From Candidatus Zixiibacteriota bacterium (GTDB taxonomy: Bacteria > Zixibacteria > MSB-5A5 > GN15 > FEB-12), in assembly GCA_040752815.1 (NCBI GenBank), contig JBFMGC010000026.1, positions 1 to 37,453 of the forward strand: DNA of 37,453 nt. Direction: 5' to 3'. The position numbers were made by a program, and so were the translations under genes. Positions 24,734 through 37,097 of the stretch are shown here, in pieces; within the stretch, counting starts at the first letter, position 1, and each line of letters begins with the position of its first letter. Below the pieces are notes generated by a model. That model was not told the origin of the DNA. It was given only the letters and a program-made list of their open reading frames with translations, and did no database searches.

Positions 24734-26134
24734 ATGAACAAAACCCGCCAGCCCGCAGAACCATACCGCATAAAAGCAGTAGAGGCGATCAAGCTCCGCA
24801 GCCGCCACGAGCGCGAGCGGCTGATCGCCGAGGCTAACTACAATCTCTTTAAGATCGACGCCCAGGATATCTATATCGACTTGCTGACCGACTCCGGCAC
24901 CGGTGCGATGTCCAACAAACAGTGGGCGGCGCTCATGCTCGGCGATGAATCGTATGCCGGAGCGATCTCGTTCCGCAAATTCGAAAATACGGTCAGGGGA
25001 CTTTGCGGGAAACGGTTCGTGATCCCCTGCCATCAGGGGAGAGTCGCGGAGAATCTGGTGTTCTCGAACCTCATGAAAAAGGGCCAGTTTGTTCCGAACA
25101 ACACGCATTTCGACACCACCCGCGGCAACTGTCTCCACAAAGGCGGCATCCCGATCGACTTGCCTTGCCCGGAGAGCAAGTCCGATGAACCGCTCCCCTT
25201 CAAGGGCAACATGGATGTCGACCGTCTGGAGTCGTTTGTCAAAGAAAACGGCGCGGACCAGATCGCTATGGTGATAATGACGGTCACAAACAACTCGGCC
25301 GGCGGCCAGCCGGTGTCGATGGCCAACATCCATGAGGTGTCTGAAATCTGTCACCGCTACGGCATACTGTTCTACTTCGACTGCGCCCGGTTTGCAGAGA
25401 ATTGCTATTTCATCAAGCGCGACGAGCCCGGTTATGCTGGCAAGAGCATTCGCGAAATAGCAATGGAGATGTTTTCCTACTGCGACGGCGCGATGATGTC
25501 GGCCAAGAAAGACGGTCTGGCAAATATCGGTGGGTTTATTACGCTCGATGATGAGGATGCGTACGAACGCCTCACTCAACATCTGATCCTGATCGAGGGA
25601 TTCCCGACCTATGGCGGTTTGGCGGGACGTGATTTGGAGATTGTGGCAGTGGGTCTCGAAGAGGTGCTTGATTTCGAGTATCTCGATTTCCGCATAGAGC
25701 AGGTGCGGTATTTCGGTGATCAGATCAAAGCGGCCGGCCTGCCGATAATCGAGCCTACCGGCGGCCATGCCGTGTTTGTCGATGCCGGCCGGTTTCTCCT
25801 GCACATACCGGCGGGCCAGTTTCCCGGGCAATCCCTTTCGGTTGAGTTTTATATCGAGGGTGGAATCAGGGTTGTCGAAATCGGCAGCCTGATGTTCGGC
25901 GGGGTCGATACGAATAGCGGCAAGGAGTATCTCGCTCCGAGAGAACTCGTCCGGATGTGCCTTCCGCGGCGGGTCTATACCAATTCGCATATCGACTATG
26001 TCGCCGACACCGCTGCGCGAATTGGCGCGCGCAAGAACCGGCTCAAGGGGTACCGGGTGACACGCCAATCTCAGTTCCTTCGTCACTTCACTTGTGATCT
26101 GGCCGTATGCGACGTACAGAGGGTCAAAGCGTGA
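24734..26134 (+). CDS. tnaA: Tryptophanase (beta-eliminating lyase family)
   Basis: This PLP enzyme, 466 residues, would cleave tryptophan to indole, pyruvate and ammonia. Family landmarks are PYRIKAVEAIKL (10-21), IDLLTDSGTGAMS (48-60), GDESYAGAISF (70-80), CHQGRVAEN (99-107), NNSAGGQPVSMAN (186-198), FDCARFAENCYFIK (215-228) and Lys259 in MMSAKKDGLANIGG, the Schiff-base lysine. Tryptophanase is favoured over tyrosine phenol-lyase by HFDTTRG with Asp at 127 and by GIRVVEIGS, where phenol-lyases have an arginine (MERG) that binds the phenol. A strong AAAGGAG site precedes the ATG. The stop overlaps the following lipoprotein gene by four bases (GTGA). No leader peptide like tnaC was identified. 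Cytosolic. Confidence 0.9.
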   Translation: MNKTRQPAEPYRIKAVEAIKLRSRHERERLIAEANYNLFKIDAQDIYIDLLTDSGTGAMSNKQWAALMLGDESYAGAISFRKFENTVRGLCGKRFVIPCHQGRVAENLVFSNLMKKGQFVPNNTHFDTTRGNCLHKGGIPIDLPCPESKSDEPLPFKGNMDVDRLESFVKENGADQIAMVIMTVTNNSAGGQPVSMANIHEVSEICHRYGILFYFDCARFAENCYFIKRDEPGYAGKSIREIAMEMFSYCDGAMMSAKKDGLANIGGFITLDDEDAYERLTQHLILIEGFPTYGGLAGRDLEIVAVGLEEVLDFEYLDFRIEQVRYFGDQIKAAGLPIIEPTGGHAVFVDAGRFLLHIPAGQFPGQSLSVEFYIEGGIRVVEIGSLMFGGVDTNSGKEYLAPRELVRMCLPRRVYTNSHIDYVADTAARIGARKNRLKGYRVTRQSQFLRHFTCDLAVCDVQRVKA

Positions 26135-26925: not shown

Positions 26926-26954
26926 TTGACAGATTGCCGGGAACTTGATATAAT
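26926..26954 (+). promoter_or_regulatory. Consensus sigma-70-type promoter of the T9SS-like locus
   Basis: Perfect TTGACA (26926-26931) and perfect TATAAT (26949-26954) with the optimal 17-bp spacing. Transcription should start near 26961, leaving an unusually long leader of about 152 nt before the ATG at 27113. It is the strongest promoter seen in the window. Confidence 0.88.
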
Positions 26955-26992
26955 AACGCGGTTTATACTGACTGAGAGGAGATCGATCTATA

Positions 26993-27111
26993 GCACTACG
27001 GTTAACGCTTTTTTGATTTGGTAGTTGAAAGAAGCTTTTAAAGGGTTTTGCAGTTAGCCCGCAAACCGTAGTTGCAGATCGACTCGGTTCCAGGGCTGGG
27101 TTTTATCCCAG
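26993..27111 (+). promoter_or_regulatory. Structured 5' leader of the PorU-like gene
   Basis: ACTACGGTT (26995-27003) pairs perfectly with AACCGTAGT (27064-27072); the stem extends by GC/GC (26993-26994 with 27074-27075) across a one-base bulge. It closes a loop of about 60 nt containing CTTTTTTG and AAGCTTTT. A second stem, CTGGG (27096-27100) with CCCAG (27107-27111), ends one base before the ATG, where no clear ribosome-binding site is seen. I do not recognise a known riboswitch class. A regulatory RNA role is inferred from length and structure. Confidence 0.5.
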
Positions 27112-27112
27112 T

Positions 27113-30100
27113 ATGGATTCTCATCGGTATAGTACCCCTATCCTGTTTCTGGCAGTTATAAGCCTTCCAGCAACTCTCTGGGGAGCGGACCCTAATCTTA
27201 GGGTGATCAATTCCACCGAACAAGGCTTCCGGTTTGTCTACGACTTCGGCCCGGCGTTGGATGCTGCAGAGGCTGCCAGTTCCGAGGTAGCCGCGTCCGA
27301 GTTGGTCGAAACAGTCCAACTGGCTGTTCCGCCCGGCTCGGAGGCCCGGTTGCTGTCAGCGACTGGAATCGGCGAGTCGCTGTCGGACGTTGTCGCACCG
27401 GATTCAAGTTATCGGATGAGCGGGCTGGCCGAGGTATCGCGGCCGGTGCTCACTCGTGGACGGCAGACAGTCGGCGTTAGAATCAGCCCGTATACCAATG
27501 GCCTGACCTACCGACAGGTGGAGGTGGAGGTCGGGTTTGACCGCACGCGCGCTGCGGCTGCACTCAGTCGTGAGGAAGATCCCGTATTCGAACGAATATG
27601 GGCGTCATCTTTGGCGAACTACGATGTCGCCAGGTCCTGGCCGCGTGAGGACCGCAAGCTGACGGCAATCTCTGCTGCGATGTCTACCGACTCTCACGAG
27701 AATCTGACAGCCGCGTCTGCCTGGTACAAGATCCCGGTCACCCAGACCGGCTTGGTACGAGTTACGGGCGCCCAGCTTGAAGCGGCGGGGATTTCGCTTT
27801 CCGGGCTTCGGTCCGATTCGATTCGCATCTTCAATGCCGGCGGCCTGCCCAACTCAGTGGACAATTTCGAGCCGAGGCCGGAATTCACTGAGATCTCGCT
27901 AATGGTTCTGGACGGCGGCGACGGAGAATTCGGGCGGAACGATCAGCTCCTGTTTTTTGGTGAGGCTCCCAATCGTTGGCTGTATTCCCCGACCGGCACG
28001 CCTCGCTGGGTGAACAACGTTTACACCACCACCAACATTTACTGGCTCGCGGTGTCAGGTAGTTTTTCCACAGCCCCAAGGCGCATGGTTCAGGTGCTCG
28101 GCGCTCCGACCGGCGCACCCGTTTATGACACATATCGCGCAAGGGTGCATATCGAGCAGGATAATCTGATCGGCACCGAGCCCGACGGTAATGTCTGGGA
28201 TTTCTACAACTGGTATTGGAGCAATCAGACGTCGGTTGCATTTCAGGTGGCGACGCCCGGAGCTATCGAATCTGATTCGACCCATATCTATGTATCGGGG
28301 CGCACCAACCGCAATATCGACGTAACAGTGAATGGTGTGCCGGCGTCGGAGATTGACTGCAACAGCTCTGAGTGCCGGTTTTACACGAGAGCGCTAAGAG
28401 GAGGGGCCGCCCAGTCCAATCAGACCAGTTTGGTGCTGACGCCTATCTCGGCGCGGATTCCCCCGTTTTTGGACTATGTGGAGATGACCTATTCAAGTCG
28501 GATAGTGCCGGCGAACAACCGACTCGACTTTGTGATGGAGGGTATCGACGGTGACGTGGATATTCGGGTGGTCGACGCCTTCAGCTCTACGCCGACAATT
28601 CTCGACATTTCGGATCCGCTGCATCCTGAGATCATCGCCGGGTATGATCGCAGCGGTGGGTATGTCACATTTCGCGGTCATGTATCTACGGACAGTGCCA
28701 ACCGCTTCTATTGCGGCATCGTGAGCCTGGCGGTACCGTCGGCGCCGCTAGCCCGAGTGGATTTCACGGACCTTCGCGCCGGGTACAAGCAGACCGACCT
28801 GATTATCGTGGCCACTTCCTCGCTGGCCGGAAGCCTGGACGAGTATATAGCATACCGTCAGGGCCAGGGAGTGGTGATACAGGTTGTCGACATCGCAGAT
28901 ATCATTGACAACTTTTCGTACGGCCTCTACGATCCGACGGCGATCCGCGATTTTCTCAAGTTCGCGTATGAGAATTATTCGGCTCCGGCGCCATCCGGTG
29001 TGCTATTTGTCGGCGACGCGACGTATGATTATCTGGATCGTTTGGGCACCGGCACAACCAACCTGGTTCCGTCGTATGTTCGTCCCGGCGACCGGACGTA
29101 CAGCGACGACAACTACGTCTACTTCGGCGAGTTCGGCATCCTCGATGAGGATCGCGACCGTGGTTATGACATGATGACAGCTCGCTGGCCGGTGCGATCG
29201 GCGTCCGAGATAAATACAATAGTCGCCAAAGCCAGGGAATACGAATCCCCGGCGACTTTCGGCGCCTGGCGCACGCGGATAACGCTGGTCGCCGACGACG
29301 AGCACGCGGCCGAGCGCCACAACGAGTTGTTTCACACCCGGGACACCGAAACGCTCGAGCGGGTGTACGTGCCCCGCACGCTGAACCGGCAGAAGATCTA
29401 TCTCTGGGATTACCCGTTCGTGAATCGCGAGAAGCCCGGCGCGAATGAGGCCATACTCCGTGCGTTCAACGAGGGCACGCTGATCGTCAATTATGTCGGG
29501 CACGGCAACCCGGATGTCTGGGCGCACGAGCGTGTCCTGCAGCGGGCGGGAGATCTCCCGCTGCTGCGTAACTCTGGCCGGCTGCCGCTAGTGTATGCGG
29601 CGTCGTGTGATATTGGGTTCTTCGATGATCCCCAAAGCGAGGGTATGGGCGAGGGCTTTCTGGAAATGCGCGAGGGCGGGGCGGTGGGAGTGATCTCGGC
29701 AACTCGACTTGTATACGCCGCTGATAATGCCCAGTTCAATCGCGCCGTTTACGCGCAGCTTTTTGCGAATCCGGATCTATCGATCAGCGAGGCGCTGTTT
29801 GCCGCTAAGGTGCAGCGGCAGTATCCCAACCCGTTCGACACGATTCCGCGCCGGGTGGACAATGACCGCGCCTACAGTTTTCTCGGTGATCCCTGCCTTC
29901 GGCTGGGGCTTCCCCGCTACCGTATCGAATTCACGACCCAACCCGACAGCCTGGTGGCTCTGCAGACTTCGCGCCTGAGCGGGCGAATCACCGATCAGTC
30001 CGGCTTGCCTTTCAACGGCGATGGGGTGCTTTATGTCGATGTCTATGACTCCGATCGGCAGCGCTCGTATCATCTGCCGGACGACACCAATATGACACGT

Positions 30101-30970
30101 TACGCGGTCACAGGTCCAACGATTTTTCGTGGCACCGCGTCGATTGACGATGGCCAGTTTGATATGCAGTTCATTACGCCGGTTGATGTCGGCTACCGCG
30201 GTGTCAGCGCCAGAGTGTCGGTGTATGCTGTCCTGGGAAGCGTGGATGCTGTCGGAATGGTGGACAGTATCGCGGTGAGTGAGAGGCAAGGGACCGCCCA
30301 GGATATGCAAGGGCCGCAGATCGAATACGGTTCGGTTAAACGCGGCCTGATTCGCGACGGTGACTTTATTGACCGCGCCGACAGCCTGGTGATACGGCTG
30401 GCGGATGTCTCAGGAATAAACCTGGTTGGGGGGATCGGCCACGGTATCAGCCTGGTAATCGACGACCGCGCCGAAGAGGCGATATATCTGACCGACCTGT
30501 TCCAGTACGAACGTGACAGCCACACGTCCGGCAGCCTGATGTTCGCCCTATCCGGATTCGAAAGCGGTCGTCACCGCTTCAATATCAAAGCCTGGGACAA
30601 CGTGAACAACGTCTCGTCGGCCGAGTTTACCGCCGAGATCGGCGGAGGCGCCGGACTGGCAGTAAGAGATTTACTCAACCATCCCAACCCGATGCAGCAA
30701 CTGACGATCTTTTATTTTGAGTTGACTGAAGCGGTCGAGGAATTGAAAGTCTCCGTTTACACGCTATCCGGTAAGTACATCTGGAGCACGAGCCGATATG
30801 ATCTTCAGGCCGATCGATATCCGAATGAGACGGTCGAGATTGTCTGGGACGGCCGTGACAACGAGGGGGATCGGGTCGGCACGGGGGTGTATATCTATCG
30901 CCTGTCCGCTCTTTCGGCCGGGCAGGGCGGCGAGGCCGAGGAATTCGGCAAACTGGTAGTTTTGAACTGA
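27113..30970 (+). CDS. PorU-like C25 (gingipain-type) peptidase, T9SS sortase homologue
   Basis: This 1285-residue exported protein starts with a signal peptide (YSTPILFLAVISLPATLWGAD). The C25 domain lies at about 555-930: DLIIVATSSLAGSLDEYIAYRQGQG, YDPTAIRDFLKFAYENY, GVLFVGDATYDYLDR, then the catalytic His797 in VNYVGHGNPDVWAHE and Cys832 in YAASCDIGFF. The order and long N-terminal beta-rich region match PorU, which in Bacteroidetes cuts off cargo sorting domains and attaches cargo to the surface. The C terminus (NHPNPMQQL, LKVSVYTLSGKYIW, GTGVYIYRL, KLVVLN) is itself a sorting-type/FlgD-Ig domain, as in PorU. It heads a probable operon with the PorV-like gene 46 bp downstream. Whether it is a sortase or a cargo protease is not proven. 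Confidence 0.85.
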   Translation: MDSHRYSTPILFLAVISLPATLWGADPNLRVINSTEQGFRFVYDFGPALDAAEAASSEVAASELVETVQLAVPPGSEARLLSATGIGESLSDVVAPDSSYRMSGLAEVSRPVLTRGRQTVGVRISPYTNGLTYRQVEVEVGFDRTRAAAALSREEDPVFERIWASSLANYDVARSWPREDRKLTAISAAMSTDSHENLTAASAWYKIPVTQTGLVRVTGAQLEAAGISLSGLRSDSIRIFNAGGLPNSVDNFEPRPEFTEISLMVLDGGDGEFGRNDQLLFFGEAPNRWLYSPTGTPRWVNNVYTTTNIYWLAVSGSFSTAPRRMVQVLGAPTGAPVYDTYRARVHIEQDNLIGTEPDGNVWDFYNWYWSNQTSVAFQVATPGAIESDSTHIYVSGRTNRNIDVTVNGVPASEIDCNSSECRFYTRALRGGAAQSNQTSLVLTPISARIPPFLDYVEMTYSSRIVPANNRLDFVMEGIDGDVDIRVVDAFSSTPTILDISDPLHPEIIAGYDRSGGYVTFRGHVSTDSANRFYCGIVSLAVPSAPLARVDFTDLRAGYKQTDLIIVATSSLAGSLDEYIAYRQGQGVVIQVVDIADIIDNFSYGLYDPTAIRDFLKFAYENYSAPAPSGVLFVGDATYDYLDRLGTGTTNLVPSYVRPGDRTYSDDNYVYFGEFGILDEDRDRGYDMMTARWPVRSASEINTIVAKAREYESPATFGAWRTRITLVADDEHAAERHNELFHTRDTETLERVYVPRTLNRQKIYLWDYPFVNREKPGANEAILRAFNEGTLIVNYVGHGNPDVWAHERVLQRAGDLPLLRNSGRLPLVYAASCDIGFFDDPQSEGMGEGFLEMREGGAVGVISATRLVYAADNAQFNRAVYAQLFANPDLSISEALFAAKVQRQYPNPFDTIPRRVDNDRAYSFLGDPCLRLGLPRYRIEFTTQPDSLVALQTSRLSGRITDQSGLPFNGDGVLYVDVYDSDRQRSYHLPDDTNMTRYAVTGPTIFRGTASIDDGQFDMQFITPVDVGYRGVSARVSVYAVLGSVDAVGMVDSIAVSERQGTAQDMQGPQIEYGSVKRGLIRDGDFIDRADSLVIRLADVSGINLVGGIGHGISLVIDDRAEEAIYLTDLFQYERDSHTSGSLMFALSGFESGRHRFNIKAWDNVNNVSSAEFTAEIGGGAGLAVRDLLNHPNPMQQLTIFYFELTEAVEELKVSVYTLSGKYIWSTSRYDLQADRYPNETVEIVWDGRDNEGDRVGTGVYIYRLSALSAGQGGEAEEFGKLVVLN

Positions 30971-31016
30971 TTGCGATGACAACATCTGTAACTTTATATT
31001 CCTGGAGTATCTCTTG

Positions 31017-33740
31017 ATGAACATGCGAAAACAGCTTCTGGTGGCGGCAGCCGTACTTCTCGGTCTGATTCCGGTCTCGGATGCCCTGGCCAACATCTCC
31101 AATGCGGCGGTGCTGTTTCTTAGGATAGCGCCGGGGTCGCGCGCCGCCGGTATGGGCGAGGCCTACGTGGCGATTGCCGATGATGCGACCGCAACGCACT
31201 GGAATCCGGCAGGTCTGGGCAGCTATCCGCTTTCGGATACCTGGATCGAAGCCGAGATCCCCGCGGCCTATCGCCCGCTGAAGGGCTTTGCACCGCTGAG
31301 TACCGGAGGCGACCACAATTACCTCGACTACGATATCTGGGCGATCACACCCCAGGGATTGATTCGCTATGATAACAAACGCTGGAACACCGACGAGGTC
31401 TTCAGCACCCGCACCGACGAAACCCTCGAGCAGATCGTCAAGAATTACTTCCGTATCGACGATCCGGCCCGCCTCGAGGCCATGATCGAACGGGTGGCGG
31501 CTCTCAATAATCGAGGCGGCTACGACGTGATCGAAGCGTTGCGCGATACTATCGTGGCATCGATTCCGGAAACATACGATACCCGGGAGACTGTCCTGCA
31601 GGATATGGATTCGCTCCTGGTTTGTTATCGCCGCTGCCTGGTGAACTGGGATCGAGTCCAGGAGGTCCGCGACCGTCTCAAGGAAGGGCTGAAAGACGGT
31701 GCGCTCAATGATACCGAGTGTGATCGGGTTGCCGTATCGCTTGAACGCACGCGCAACCGCTTTCTCCCCGAGGAGCTGCGGGTACCGTATAGCGCCCTGT
31801 TCAGCGGCGAGCCGACAGCGGTAGCGTCCAACGGCGACGTGCTGCTGGTTGGGTCGGCCGACGGCCTTGCCAGCTTCAACGGTCGTTACTGGACTCTGGT
31901 GAAGAGCCAGGCCGGTGAGAAGATAGGCGAAATCACTTCGCTGCACACGGTGGGCGAGGCGATAATCGTGGGAATGTCCGACGGAATCGGTGTGTTCCGC
32001 GGTGCGACGGTCAGCCCGCTTACCAACAGCGCGGCGACTTTGCCGGACGGATCGGTCGATGCTATCGGAGGCAGCGCTCTGACCGATCTCTACGCCGTAG
32101 TGGCAGGCGACGTTTATCGTTTCAACGGCATGCAGTGGACCGGCACAACCAGCTACACGGTAGCGGTGGATGACTCGCTCGACAAAATCGCGGCCCGCTT
32201 CTCTATCTACGGATCAGCCGCAGACAAGGAGCGCTTTATAGAGAAATATCGCGACTTGCAGACGGCTACCATGGCGCCCGCGGAAACGCCTGTTGTTCTG
32301 GACTCGGCTCCGACAGCCTCAATAGATACGACGGTAATCCCCGCGGTCGACTCGACCATGCCGCCCGCCGAGCAGCCCGGTGACACTGTTGTTGCGCCTG
32401 CCTCCGGAATTGCCGGAATCGACACACCATTCCATCCGGGTGCGGAAATTCGCGTACCGATCGCAGCCAGCGTCAAAGGGAAGGTCCGCGCGATTTTTGT
32501 CGATGTCAATCACCGTCTCTGGCTCGGCACCGACCACGGCATATTCTACTTCGACGGCAGCCGGTGGCAGACGCCGGGCTACTCGCAGTACACGATTGCG
32601 TCTGGGGAGACGCTGGACACGATCGCGTCTCGCCGCTCCGGCCTGACAATCGATGAGCTCGACATGTACAAGAAGGTGTTGAGGGAGATAAACGATCTGG
32701 ATGGCGAACCCCAGGAGGGCGCCACTATCAAAGTCTACACTAACCCGGCGGCCCACTCGGTAAACGCCATTGGCGGCGACGGACGCACGGTGTATTTCGC
32801 CACTGAAGACGGTCTGATCGAATTCGACGGCCGCAACTGGTCGCGCACCGGACTAAGGGGTCTGACTCGCGACAACATTGTCGGGGTCAGTCTATTGGGA
32901 AGCGAAAGCTGGCTGGCCAGTAACGAGAAGCTGGTCATCAAGGGGCGAGGCCACTCCGAGATCTCGGTCATGCACGTGAACTGGCTGCCGGAACTGGCGA
33001 GCGATCTGTACTACGAGTTTCTGTCGGTGGCAGGCAACAAAGAAGGCTGGGGGACATTCGGCGGCAGCATCACGTTCATCAGCTACGGTAAGTTCCAGAG
33101 AACCAACGAAACCGGCCAGGAACTCGGTGAGTTCGAATCGTTCGATATCGCCGGAGCGATTTCATACGGTACGTCGCTGACTAACAAGCTCAAGGGCGGG
33201 GTATCGGTCAAGGTCATCTACTCGCGCCTCTCGGATCAGGGTGCGGGCGCCGAGAAGGGCAGTGGCACCGCCACCGGGTTCGCTCTTGATCTCGGACTGC
33301 TGTACCACATGACTCCGCGGCTCACGTGGGGTCTGGCGCTGACCAACCTCGGTCCGGAGATGTCATATATCGACGCCGACCAGTCCGACGATCTCCCGCG
33401 CAACCTGGCGATAGGTGTGGCATATCGACTCCTCCGTTCTGAGTATACCAGCCTTATAGCTACTGTCGAGGCAAACAAACTAATGGTCGGACTCGATGGC
33501 AAAACGAGCAAGGAAATCAAAGAATCGATATTCAACGGCGGGATTGAGTTCACCTACGCCAACCTGTTCGCGGCCCGCGCAGGCTATATTTACGATCAGG
33601 AAGGTGAGATCAAAACTCCGACGATTGGATTCGGTCTGTCACCCTTCACGTGGGGTGAGTTCGATTTTGCTTACATCCCGAGTCAGAAGGACTTTTCGCT
33701 GGCCAACACGCTGCGCATTTCATTGCGCTTGATTCTGTAG
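31017..33740 (+). CDS. PorV-like outer-membrane protein interrupted by propeller and LysM-like repeats
   Basis: A 907-residue protein with signal peptide (MRKQLLVAAAVLLGLIPVSDALA) and a PorV/UPF0164-type N terminus (AAVLFLRIAPGSRAAGMGEAYVAIADDATATHWNPAGLG, cited as motif at about 28-68). Barrel strands resume near residue 658 (SDLYYEFLSVAG, WGTFGGSITFISYG) and run to the end. Between about 95 and 655 is an insertion. It contains propeller-like blades such as ITPQGLIRYDNKRW, DGLASFNGRYWTL, HGIFYFDGSRWQ and DGLIEFDGRNW. It also has three LysM-like segments, TRTDETLEQIVKNYF, SYTVAVDDSLDKIAARF and QYTIASGETLDTIASRR. PorV normally has about 400 residues and shuttles T9SS cargo. The start is ATG 31017 (TGGAG upstream); TTG 31014 and ATG 31023 are alternatives. 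Confidence 0.8.
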   Translation: MNMRKQLLVAAAVLLGLIPVSDALANISNAAVLFLRIAPGSRAAGMGEAYVAIADDATATHWNPAGLGSYPLSDTWIEAEIPAAYRPLKGFAPLSTGGDHNYLDYDIWAITPQGLIRYDNKRWNTDEVFSTRTDETLEQIVKNYFRIDDPARLEAMIERVAALNNRGGYDVIEALRDTIVASIPETYDTRETVLQDMDSLLVCYRRCLVNWDRVQEVRDRLKEGLKDGALNDTECDRVAVSLERTRNRFLPEELRVPYSALFSGEPTAVASNGDVLLVGSADGLASFNGRYWTLVKSQAGEKIGEITSLHTVGEAIIVGMSDGIGVFRGATVSPLTNSAATLPDGSVDAIGGSALTDLYAVVAGDVYRFNGMQWTGTTSYTVAVDDSLDKIAARFSIYGSAADKERFIEKYRDLQTATMAPAETPVVLDSAPTASIDTTVIPAVDSTMPPAEQPGDTVVAPASGIAGIDTPFHPGAEIRVPIAASVKGKVRAIFVDVNHRLWLGTDHGIFYFDGSRWQTPGYSQYTIASGETLDTIASRRSGLTIDELDMYKKVLREINDLDGEPQEGATIKVYTNPAAHSVNAIGGDGRTVYFATEDGLIEFDGRNWSRTGLRGLTRDNIVGVSLLGSESWLASNEKLVIKGRGHSEISVMHVNWLPELASDLYYEFLSVAGNKEGWGTFGGSITFISYGKFQRTNETGQELGEFESFDIAGAISYGTSLTNKLKGGVSVKVIYSRLSDQGAGAEKGSGTATGFALDLGLLYHMTPRLTWGLALTNLGPEMSYIDADQSDDLPRNLAIGVAYRLLRSEYTSLIATVEANKLMVGLDGKTSKEIKESIFNGGIEFTYANLFAARAGYIYDQEGEIKTPTIGFGLSPFTWGEFDFAYIPSQKDFSLANTLRISLRLIL

Positions 33741-33749
33741 GGCAGGCAG

Positions 33750-36700
33750 ATGCACTCAGTCATTGGAAGATTACGCGGTCGGCTTCTTCTCGCCGGACTG
33801 TCGACTATTCTCACAGCTGCACCCGCCGTCTGGTGTGACGGCGGGAAACTGCTTAACCCGTCGAAATCGGCGCTCGATTCGACTACGACGCCCAACACCG
33901 TACGCCGCCGGTGCCTTACGCCCGATGGCAACGGGCGTCGGCTGATCGAGGCGGTGGGAGAGAAGTGGAAGTTACCCGTAGGAGCGCAATCAGCGGACTT
34001 TGACACCACCATCCACTGCCTGGTGCTGCGCTTCGACTTCCAGTACGAGACTGTCGATGACCCCAACACCACCGGCCGCGGGCACATGAATATGTCTCGT
34101 CCGCTCGATACACTCACTGACGAGGAATACATCGCACGCGTGGGGCACCTGATTGATCCGCCGCCGCATGACTCCCTTTTTTTCGATGCCCACATGAGGG
34201 CGCTCAACCGATATTGGGAGACGGTTTCTGGGGGACAAATACATCTGAGTTGGGATATCTTTCCGCGGGAACGCGATTCGGTTTACGAACTTCCGCACCC
34301 GATGAGCTATTATGGCAAGTGTGACTTCGCCGATGTAGTGGAGGGCCTCGAGGCGTACTTTGTCGACTGCATCACGCTGGCCGACACTACCGATCCTGAA
34401 ATCGACTTTTCCGCATACGATGCGTTCTTCCTGTTCCATGCCGGTTCTGATGCGCAGAACGATATCGGTTTCCCCACGACGTGCGCCGATCTTTTCAGCG
34501 GTTACATCAAGTTCGCCGGCGAAGTGTCAGTGGACAGCGGCGCCCACGGGGTTAGTACTGCGCTGATGATGCCCGAGACTACGGTCCAGGATGGCCGAGC
34601 CACCGCGCTCAATGCGGTCATGGCGCATGAATTCGGGCATCAACTGGGGCTGATCGATCTTTACAACACCGAGAACTTCTTCACCCAGGTCGGTGACTTC
34701 TCCCTGATGGATAACAACGGCTTCGGCACCGGAATCGACTTTGGCTGGCCGGCCGGAAAGGTCTTCGGCGCCATTCCGCTTTTGCCGGACGCCTGGTCGC
34801 GGGCGTACCTAGGTGTCGATGACGTTGTCGATTTCCGCCGCGACACCGCCGACGTGCAGCTGGTTGCCGCCGAGATGATGACCGACCCCGGCCTGCGCAT
34901 CGCCCGCCTGCCAATCACCGAAAACGAGTTTTACCTGGTCGAGAACCGCCTCGAAGAAGTTGACAAGCACACCACCTATGTTCTGGCCGACCAGGAGACC
35001 AGTGTCATTCAGGGACCGGTCGACTCTACCCGTGCGTTCACCGGGGAGTACGATTTCCTCATGCCGGGCTCGGGCGTTTTGATACTTCACGTCGATGAAG
35101 AAGTGGCGGCGCTCGACTATGACGGCGACGGCCTCAACAATTTTGAGGACAACGATGCCCAGTGGCACCGCGACGAGCGCAAGTTCGTGCGCCTGGTCGA
35201 GGCGGATGGACTCGTGCATTTCGGCGGAAACTACTATGCCGGGTTCGGCAATTCGGGGGACCTGTTCCGCGACGATCGCAAAGACGAGTTCACTCCGAAC
35301 ACTAATCCGGCTACAGTCGACAACTCCGGCAACCAGACGCACTTTTTCGTCGAACAGATTGAGAGACTTCCCGGGCCGAGCGGACGTGATGACCGGCAGG
35401 TCCGGTTCGATTTCGAGATCGACCGCCAGGCGGACGGCTTTCCGGTCAGAGCGGGCTCACCACAGTTGCAGCTGGCGCCGATTGCGGATGATGTCGATGG
35501 CGACGGATATCCGGAGATCATCATGGCGGCCGATCGCTTTCTGTCGGTGGTGACTGCCGCGGGGAAGAATTTCATCAGGACTCCTGACAACTGCCCCACC
35601 TGTCCGGTGATCTACGATTCGGCGGCGTCATCTGTGAATCGTGGCACCGGAATAAATCCGGCTGCCGCGTACGCGGTTCCGGTTTACGCCATTGCGCCGG
35701 CGCCGATTACCAGCGGACCTGTGGCCGGCAGCGTCCCGGCCCTGGACGATGAAAGACTTGTGGCAATCGGCCATCCTCATCCGAATCCGCTTTTCGCTCC
35801 GGTATTCGGGATAGTTTCATTGTACCGTGCGGACGATGCCAATGCCGATGCCCGCGCTGACCTCGCCGACTCGCTTCGCACGATCGGCTGGCCGGTGATG
35901 CTCTCATTCGGTGATTCGATTCTTTATGCGCTCACGACAACCAACGAACTGAGTCGCTGGTATCTGCCCAATCGTGTCGCAGCGACCCGCGCTTTTGGCG
36001 GGAATGTCCTGATACATGGTTCTTGCCGCTCGGGAAATGATCTGGTGCTGCTGGCCAGCGACACACTTTCCGGCGCGGATGATTCCTCGTGGGTGTATTA
36101 TGTCGACGAAAGCCCCGGGAGTTTCTCTCTTAGCGTAGATACATTCGGCCTCTCCGGCCTCTATATCTGGGGGCCGATCTCGGTTGATATGAATCGCGAC
36201 GGCATACAGGAAATTGCCGTGTGCACTCCCGACGGCAGCGTGGCCATGATCAGCATCGACACCACCAGCGGCGGGTCGAACTTCTCCATGCTCAGCGAAC
36301 GCAGGCTGGACCGGTTCATTCTGACGTCGCCGTCGGCGGGGGATATCGATCTCGACGGCTACCCCGAACTGATCATCGGCGGGCGGAACGAAGTGCTGGC
36401 GTTCAACCAGGAGCTGATCCTCAAGTCGGATTATCCGCTGGAGGTTGACGATCGCTTTCCCGACGCCGCCATAATTGCTGCCCCGCTGGTTGCTGATATC
36501 GCCTCGGGGGGACGCCCGGAGCTGGTGTTCGCATCGAGCCGGGGCAACGTCTATGCGTTCGCTGATCGCCTCAGTTACGGCTTCCCGCTTTCGAGCGGGG
36601 AACAGCGGCAGTTCGTCTCGGGCACGACTCCAGTCAGTTTCCACGACGCCTCCGGCGGCAAGATCGGCTGGCTGGGCGGCGACGGCTGGTTCTATGTGTG

Positions 36701-37097
36701 GGAGGCCGATACCGACACCATTACCGATTTTTGGCCCATGAACGGCGCCGATCCGGGCGGCTCCTTTGTATTTGATGCCGGCAAGCTCCCGTCGATCTCG
36801 CCCCCGACCATGGCCTTTGATGACTCGAAGTTCTACAATTACCCCAACCCGGTGCGGGATGGACAGACGACTATTCGCTATTATCTCGGCGATGATGCTA
36901 ATTCGGTCAAGCTGAACATCTACGATCTGTCCGGGCGGAGGATAACCCAGCTCGATGGTCGTGGGCGCGGCGGAACGGACAACGAGGTAGTCTGGGATTG
37001 TTCAGGTGTCACCGCGGGCGTGTACAGGTGCGTTATCGAGGTCAACTACTCGGGAGCCACCGAGTCGGCGTTCACAGATATTGCGATTATCAGATGA
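33750..37097 (+). CDS. Secreted M6-type metalloprotease with FG-GAP-like repeats and T9SS sorting domain
   Basis: The protein has 1115 residues with an N-terminal signal segment (RLLLAGLSTILTAAPAVWC). The zinc site is HEFGH at 293-297 within VMAHEFGHQLGLIDLYN, and FSLMDNNGFGTG follows, as in immune-inhibitor-A-like M6 peptidases. Calcium-type or FG-GAP/VCBS-like repeats occur at about 580-930 (ADDVDGDGYPEIIMA, VDMNRDGIQEIAV, GDIDLDGYPELIIGG), suggesting a propeller. The end is a clear type A sorting domain: FYNYPNPVRDGQTTIRYYL, LNIYDLSGRRITQL, GVYRCVIEV. It is thus probable T9SS cargo, encoded nine bp after the PorV-like gene, likely in the same operon as the PorU-like peptidase. Its stop overlaps the next gene by four bases (ATGA). 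Confidence 0.88.
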   Translation: MHSVIGRLRGRLLLAGLSTILTAAPAVWCDGGKLLNPSKSALDSTTTPNTVRRRCLTPDGNGRRLIEAVGEKWKLPVGAQSADFDTTIHCLVLRFDFQYETVDDPNTTGRGHMNMSRPLDTLTDEEYIARVGHLIDPPPHDSLFFDAHMRALNRYWETVSGGQIHLSWDIFPRERDSVYELPHPMSYYGKCDFADVVEGLEAYFVDCITLADTTDPEIDFSAYDAFFLFHAGSDAQNDIGFPTTCADLFSGYIKFAGEVSVDSGAHGVSTALMMPETTVQDGRATALNAVMAHEFGHQLGLIDLYNTENFFTQVGDFSLMDNNGFGTGIDFGWPAGKVFGAIPLLPDAWSRAYLGVDDVVDFRRDTADVQLVAAEMMTDPGLRIARLPITENEFYLVENRLEEVDKHTTYVLADQETSVIQGPVDSTRAFTGEYDFLMPGSGVLILHVDEEVAALDYDGDGLNNFEDNDAQWHRDERKFVRLVEADGLVHFGGNYYAGFGNSGDLFRDDRKDEFTPNTNPATVDNSGNQTHFFVEQIERLPGPSGRDDRQVRFDFEIDRQADGFPVRAGSPQLQLAPIADDVDGDGYPEIIMAADRFLSVVTAAGKNFIRTPDNCPTCPVIYDSAASSVNRGTGINPAAAYAVPVYAIAPAPITSGPVAGSVPALDDERLVAIGHPHPNPLFAPVFGIVSLYRADDANADARADLADSLRTIGWPVMLSFGDSILYALTTTNELSRWYLPNRVAATRAFGGNVLIHGSCRSGNDLVLLASDTLSGADDSSWVYYVDESPGSFSLSVDTFGLSGLYIWGPISVDMNRDGIQEIAVCTPDGSVAMISIDTTSGGSNFSMLSERRLDRFILTSPSAGDIDLDGYPELIIGGRNEVLAFNQELILKSDYPLEVDDRFPDAAIIAAPLVADIASGGRPELVFASSRGNVYAFADRLSYGFPLSSGEQRQFVSGTTPVSFHDASGGKIGWLGGDGWFYVWEADTDTITDFWPMNGADPGGSFVFDAGKLPSISPPTMAFDDSKFYNYPNPVRDGQTTIRYYLGDDANSVKLNIYDLSGRRITQLDGRGRGGTDNEVVWDCSGVTAGVYRCVIEVNYSGATESAFTDIAIIR

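Follow-up and report, generated by a model that had tools for sequence, protein, structure and literature searches.

A covarying leader RNA with mutually exclusive helices upstream of porU in Zixibacteria: a putative attenuator-type regulator of a type IX secretion operon

Comparison of orthologous sequences showed that the presumed leader of the sortase gene porU in a Candidatus Zixiibacteriota genome has four helices, namely P0, P1, P3 and a pseudoknot (PK), which are partly exclusive of one another, and that this leader is dedicated to porU. We judge it rather probable that the leader of the porU operon acts in cis as an attenuator-type RNA, in which the helices 1:2 (P1), 2:3 (PK) and 3:4 (P3 or a terminator) would exclude one another. 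The window referred to below is the whole stretch of DNA that was analyzed (37,453 nt; contig JBFMGC010000026.1), and the coordinates of its features are collected in Table 1.

Table 1. Features of the porU leader region, in coordinates of the window
Feature	Position	Strand	Remarks
Promoter TTGACA-17-TATAAT	26926..26954	+	12/12 consensus matches; GGAACTT within spacer
P0 5' strand	26961..26976	+	first ~12-16 nt of leader; pairs with porU codons 3-7
Shine-Dalgarno-like AGGAG	26977..26981	+	GGAGG in most orthologues; followed by AUA 8 nt on
Strand 1 (P1 5' strand)	26983..27003	+	lower UCGAUCU and GCA, upper CUACGGUU
P1 variable loop	27004..27055	+	little conserved, 0.33 bits per column
Strand 2, AGCCC-GCA-AACCG	27056..27068	+	AACCG common to P1 top (with strand 1) and pseudoknot (with strand 3)
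P1 3' strand	27064..27082	+	AACCGUAG, UGC, AGAUCGA
Strand 3, CGGUU-CCA-GGGCU	27085..27097	+	pseudoknot partner of strand 2; terminal CU also base of P3
P3 hairpin, CUGGG-UUUUAU-CCCAG	27096..27111	+	abuts porU AUG; same position as terminator-like hairpin in related families
porU (type IX secretion sortase, peptidase C25)	27113..30970	+	NF033707, 669.6 bits vs cut-off 420; PF01364
P0 3' strand, CUCAUCGGUAUA	27120..27131	+	within porU codons 3-7

The perfect promoter pointed out by an earlier sequence-only reading was recovered, with TTGACA at 26926-26931 and TATAAT at 26949-26954 separated by a 17-nt spacer; chance alone would give 0.4 promoter-like sites of any quality in the region. The presumed transcription start at ~26961 gives a leader of 152 nt up to the porU ATG at 27113, in agreement with the length proposed earlier. 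A comparable promoter at a near-constant distance upstream of porU was present in most of the orthologues fetched, and it was very similar in families f1 (the family of the window), f2 and f4 of the same order. Of the families of the class, only f1 and f4 kept the GGAACTT of the spacer (26940-26946), in the form TTGAC-N9-GGAACTT-TATA. The motif is similar to the -35 element of ECF-type promoters and might serve as a second promoter or a regulator site.

The gene behind the leader, previously called PorU-like, was identified as porU by the curated model NF033707. Its start codon is credible, since the N-terminus is signal-peptide-like and could be aligned with those of orthologues. Genes for a PorV/PorQ-family protein and then for an M6-like protein, whose type IX sorting tail is weak, follow on the 3' side. 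In the former (31014-33740, 908 aa), the PorV/PorQ match was confined to the C-terminal third, and LysM and PorV2 gave weak matches in mid-protein and near the N-terminus, respectively, making it an unusual composite protein of the type IX secretion system (T9SS). The latter (33750-37097) matched the model of a T9SS-dependent inactivated M6-like metalloprotease below its cut-off, and contains FG-GAP repeats besides the sorting tail. A tryptophanase/tyrosine phenol-lyase-like gene (24734-26134) is located two genes upstream of porU. Unusual porU starts, reflecting sequencing errors or shifted starts, were observed in relatives: L076 (G004) had no in-frame ATG, GTG or TTG, L067 (G014) had its aligned GTG followed shortly by a stop, and L078 (G020) had AAG at the ATG position and a GTG in the P3 loop.

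The folding energy of 26962-27130 was -65.2 kcal/mol, compared with -41.1 +/- 3.9 kcal/mol in dinucleotide shuffles (z = -6.3). As claimed beforehand, a perfect 9-bp long-range stem was found, in which ACUACGGUU (26995-27003) pairs with AACCGUAGU (27064-27072), and the MFE fold extended it by GCA:UGC, UCGAUCU:AGAUCGA and GAG:CUC. P1 is thus a long stem with a lower part of the UAUAG:CUAUA type and an upper CUACGGUU:AACCGUAG part. The second hairpin said to abut the start codon was also observed (P3), with CUGGG (27096-27100) pairing with CCCAG (27107-27111) one nucleotide before the ATG. The sequence-only reading had overlooked the AGGAG site, the helix between the 5' end and the coding region (P0) and the pseudoknot. 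PK is a two-part helix, GGCCCnnnAACCG:CGGUUnnnGGGCC, that competes with the top of P1 and with the base of the AUG-abutting hairpin. Because AACCG is common to PK and P1, and CC/CU to PK and P3, the P1 top, PK and P3 cannot all be complete at once.

Over 90 porU upstream regions were fetched from relatives, and a structure proposed by eye was tested on a MAFFT alignment (A1) of 26 f1 leaders. With the pseudoknot included, 86.5% of the cells paired and 14 pairs had changed on both sides. Double-change cells numbered 48, compared with a mean of 17.8 after shuffling, and none of 500 shuffles reached the observed value, related leaders being not independent of one another. A slid-structure control gave only 31-42% pairing, and the nested version of the structure gave the same outcome as the pseudoknotted one. 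Covariation and conservation among orthologous leaders, which the sequence-only reading had named as the check on its proposal, were therefore found, with compensatory changes in every helix. In a realigned set of about 47-48 leaders (covariance model R1), 17 pairs showed double changes; this realignment was fitted to the structure and hence biased towards it. RNAalifold recovered only the P1 top and P3 from the raw alignment; the remaining parts (P0, lower P1 and the pseudoknot) were assigned manually before being tested against controls.

For P0, 93% of the cells were paired and 4-5 pairs showed double changes. When partners were swapped, none of 20000 permutations reached the mean pairing energy observed for own partners. 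Its leader side was UUUAUACAG in most leaders and its porU side a conserved UGUAUAA (Leu-Tyr-Lys in many), a usual pair that the window replaces by UAUACUGA:UCGGUAUA. In P3, 92-95% of the cells were paired. PK, whose strands were hand-chosen, had a mean energy of -15.4 kcal/mol; own partners fitted better than swapped ones, and just 5 of 20000 permutations were as good. The PK pair AGCCC:GGGCU of the window corresponds to GGCCC:GGGCC and GGCUC:GAGCC in relatives, and the C-to-U change of the window in PK was matched by a G-to-A change in P3, indicating a three-way covariation. In G028, G009 and G063, the P1 top was lost and PK was kept. The mutually exclusive helices that characterize a transcription attenuator were accordingly observed, with AACCG in both P1 and PK and CU(CC) in both PK and P3, all of them covarying.

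PorU was present in 127 of 132 sampled genomes of the phylum. The R1 search gave exactly one match each in 43 of 80 genomes of the order, upstream of porU wherever coordinates were compared. Extended to the whole phylum, it gave one further, weak match (G089, E = 0.005), which belongs to another order and again lies just upstream of porU. Elsewhere in the class, inspection showed that the promoter, the purine tract, UAU[AC]G and a G[UC]UAA-type P1 strand recur in most families; with a simple motif search, 71 of 85 leaders could be found. Across families, P1 strands paired at -18.4 kcal/mol with their own partner versus -13.7 kcal/mol with a partner from another family. Leaders of f3, f5, f7 and f19 were divergent or poorly aligned, and no clear leader was seen upstream of porU in G030, G038 and G041.

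The long-range helix at the 5' end would also suit a leader that chiefly sets mRNA stability or yields a small RNA, since the 5'-terminal nucleotides would be shielded from decay, and the ~150-nt RNA of some relatives is bounded by the promoter and a terminator-like hairpin. The tight linkage to porU, the AUG directly after P3 and the pairing with porU codons argue for action in cis instead, and we regard this explanation as very improbable.

A search of the whole window against Rfam 15 at the gathering threshold, a check that had also been proposed beforehand, returned only a tRNA and no family for the leader. At a low threshold the leader gave chance matches alone, and 20 upstream regions of distant relatives gave nothing meaningful. 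Among the papers searched, none connected a leader RNA to type IX secretion, and none dealt with leader RNAs of the T9SS or of Zixibacteria. The earlier suggestion of an undescribed cis-regulatory RNA controlling a secretion locus is thus supported by conservation, by position in front of a gene assigned to PorU by NF033707, and by the lack of an Rfam match. The best reading is that the leader would be a new cis-acting RNA, attenuator-like in its working. It appears to fall outside the known riboswitch and attenuator families because it has no conserved leader peptide, no conserved aptamer core and, in the window, no U-run.

The same switching helices could be triggered by a small molecule or an RNA-binding protein that stabilizes P1 or PK, as in a riboswitch or a protein-sensing leader. 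A pseudoknot combined with alternative helices is riboswitch-like, some relatives have terminator-like platforms whose U-run is lost in f1, and both the P1 strands and the purine tract at the 5' end show conservation. However, conservation sits in the helix strands and the 5' tract, whereas the P1 loop lacks aptamer-like conservation (Table 1); no conserved aptamer core of a metabolite riboswitch was found there, which disfavors a classical aptamer. Besides the missing Rfam match, there is a single target gene per genome, whereas metabolite riboswitches usually serve several. We therefore consider a ligand or protein trigger rather unlikely. A general, many-target riboswitch was rejected, given one copy per genome.

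With regard to the output of the attenuator-type leader, a G+C-rich hairpin followed by a U-run was absent between the promoter and porU in the window. Such a hairpin with a U-run was observed between P1 and porU in 27 of 29 leaders of f2, f4, f7-f10, f12 and f14 (~10 expected from shuffles), and in f1 in 10 of 31 leaders versus 9.1 expected, which is background. The leaders of f15/f16 (L184, L189, L190, L192 and L193) had an ordinary GGAGG by the porU ATG and no clear terminator, and the 5' part of the leader was kept; this arrangement is a third type of output. In L170 and L175 of f7 (G088 and G087, respectively), it may be the leader's own 5' part that closes the U-run hairpin before the ATG (GCCGGGAAGG:CCUUUUCGGC-U6), and P1 itself could be the terminator.

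We then masked the 5' site and strand 1 in silico, mimicking a bound 30S subunit; only nested structures were considered, the pseudoknot being unscorable by the program. In f1, masking lowered P(3:4) from 0.92 to 0.56, compared with 0.83 when strand 2 was shuffled, and 18 of 20 leaders fell below their own shuffled mean. In the window, P(3:4) decreased from 0.83 to 0.27 and the 2:3 (PK) helix appeared in the MFE fold. The response was strong in most f2 members and absent in G001, G033, f12, G056, G059 and G089, indicating that the switching ladder is not uniform; the shuffled control of f12 was invalid, as the shuffle cuts into a long hairpin.

As the covariation shows, strand 2 has two alternative partners, strand 1 (P1 top) and strand 3 (PK), and so has strand 3, namely strand 2 (PK) and strand 4 (P3). 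We propose the following mechanism. When P1 forms, strand 3 would be free of strand 2, and P3 or the terminator would close, thereby turning porU off. If strand 1 is occupied while it leaves the polymerase, strands 2 and 3 would pair as PK, P3 would open, and porU would be on. Where the counterpart of P3 is a terminator-like stem followed by a U-run, as in several related families, the outcome is probably premature termination. In the family of the window, the U-run would have been lost, and P3 and P0 flank and would hide the AUG, probably resulting in translational control.

The occupant of strand 1 may be a ribosomal subunit. The AGGAG site is located 16 nt from the mRNA 5' end and ~130 nt from the porU AUG, is partly paired via GAG:CUC at the base of P1 in the MFE fold, and is followed by AUA at 26990-26992 (AUA or AUC in most orthologues). 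The distance from the 5' GGAGG to AUA/AUC was 7-10 nt (centre to codon) in most leaders, which equals the range of real starts in the window's genome, where Shine-Dalgarno usage was measured on about 437 kb. A subunit at the 5' GGAGG could bind once the 5' end emerges, ahead of strand 2 synthesis, and its footprint would cover strand 1. Because of this spacing and this footprint, we infer that a ribosomal subunit is the most likely trigger, at a probability clearly below even, with a protein or a ligand as the alternative. However, the A/C alternation in AUA/AUC is explained by P1 pairing (columns 39-144) and so cannot count as separate evidence for a start codon. A short translated leader peptide with regulatory codons was not found either: the frames after the 5' Shine-Dalgarno-like site were unconserved and had no AUG, and early in-frame stops after this site were common outside f1 and not kept in f1. 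A leader peptide starting at AUA/AUC was therefore rejected, since f1 does not keep the frames and the A/C choice tracks P1 pairing.

At the porU AUG of the window there was no Shine-Dalgarno sequence, despite a canonical 16S tail (ending GGATCACCTCCTTTCT and carrying CCUCCU) and its use by part of the genes, so the missing ribosome-binding site noted by the earlier reading stands. The 5' GGAGG could then be porU's own Shine-Dalgarno, moved beside the AUG by the folded leader. Split ribosome-binding sites of this kind are those of phage T4 genes 38 and 25 (PMC3014915) and E. coli thrS (PMC3936740), and in the window's family the conserved GGAGG is immediately followed by P1, and P3 ends right before an AUG devoid of its own site. 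Nevertheless, spacing between the two in the folded leader was no tighter than in shuffled sequences, and the argument from a tighter spacing was dropped. Moreover, f15/f16 keep the 5' purine tract despite a normal Shine-Dalgarno at the AUG, and P0 would need to open. We consequently regard a split site as improbable. Returning to the attenuator-type reading, its most extended form, which we put forward as a speculative and unlikely whole, would be class-wide: a subunit at a dead-end initiation site (a strong Shine-Dalgarno with no AUG) at the mRNA 5' end would be the switch for a secretion operon, and one family would have made the terminator a translational lock by means of a helix between the 5' end and the coding region.

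Like the trp- and pyr-type attenuators of E. coli and other terminator/antiterminator leaders, the porU leader has a ladder of 1:2, 2:3 and 3:4 before the first gene, and its 3:4 hairpin is terminator-like in several families related to the window's. In contrast to them, it has no conserved leader peptide, its 2:3 helix can form as a pseudoknot, and the window's family has the AUG-abutting hairpin at the terminator position and a 5' end paired with the coding region. SAM-II and preQ1-II are pseudoknotted riboswitches with translational platforms. The porU leader likewise has a hairpin loop that forms a pseudoknot with a strand further downstream, close to the start codon, but its loop is large and unconserved, it has no Rfam match and a single target, and its pseudoknot does not involve a Shine-Dalgarno. 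In the T4 genes and thrS, structure likewise lies between the Shine-Dalgarno-like site and the AUG; this is one hairpin there, whereas ~130 nt and a pseudoknot intervene in the porU leader, and some relatives add a normal Shine-Dalgarno.

The known regulation of the T9SS is protein-based, through PorX/PorY/SigP. With a deeply conserved RNA switch for the sortase gene porU, this control would gain an RNA layer, and the annotation of uncultured GN15-type bacteria would gain a new RNA family. Such a switch would also offer a natural example of kinship between a terminator-type and a translational leader, in which the 5' end of an mRNA and its own coding sequence are joined by a strongly covarying helix.
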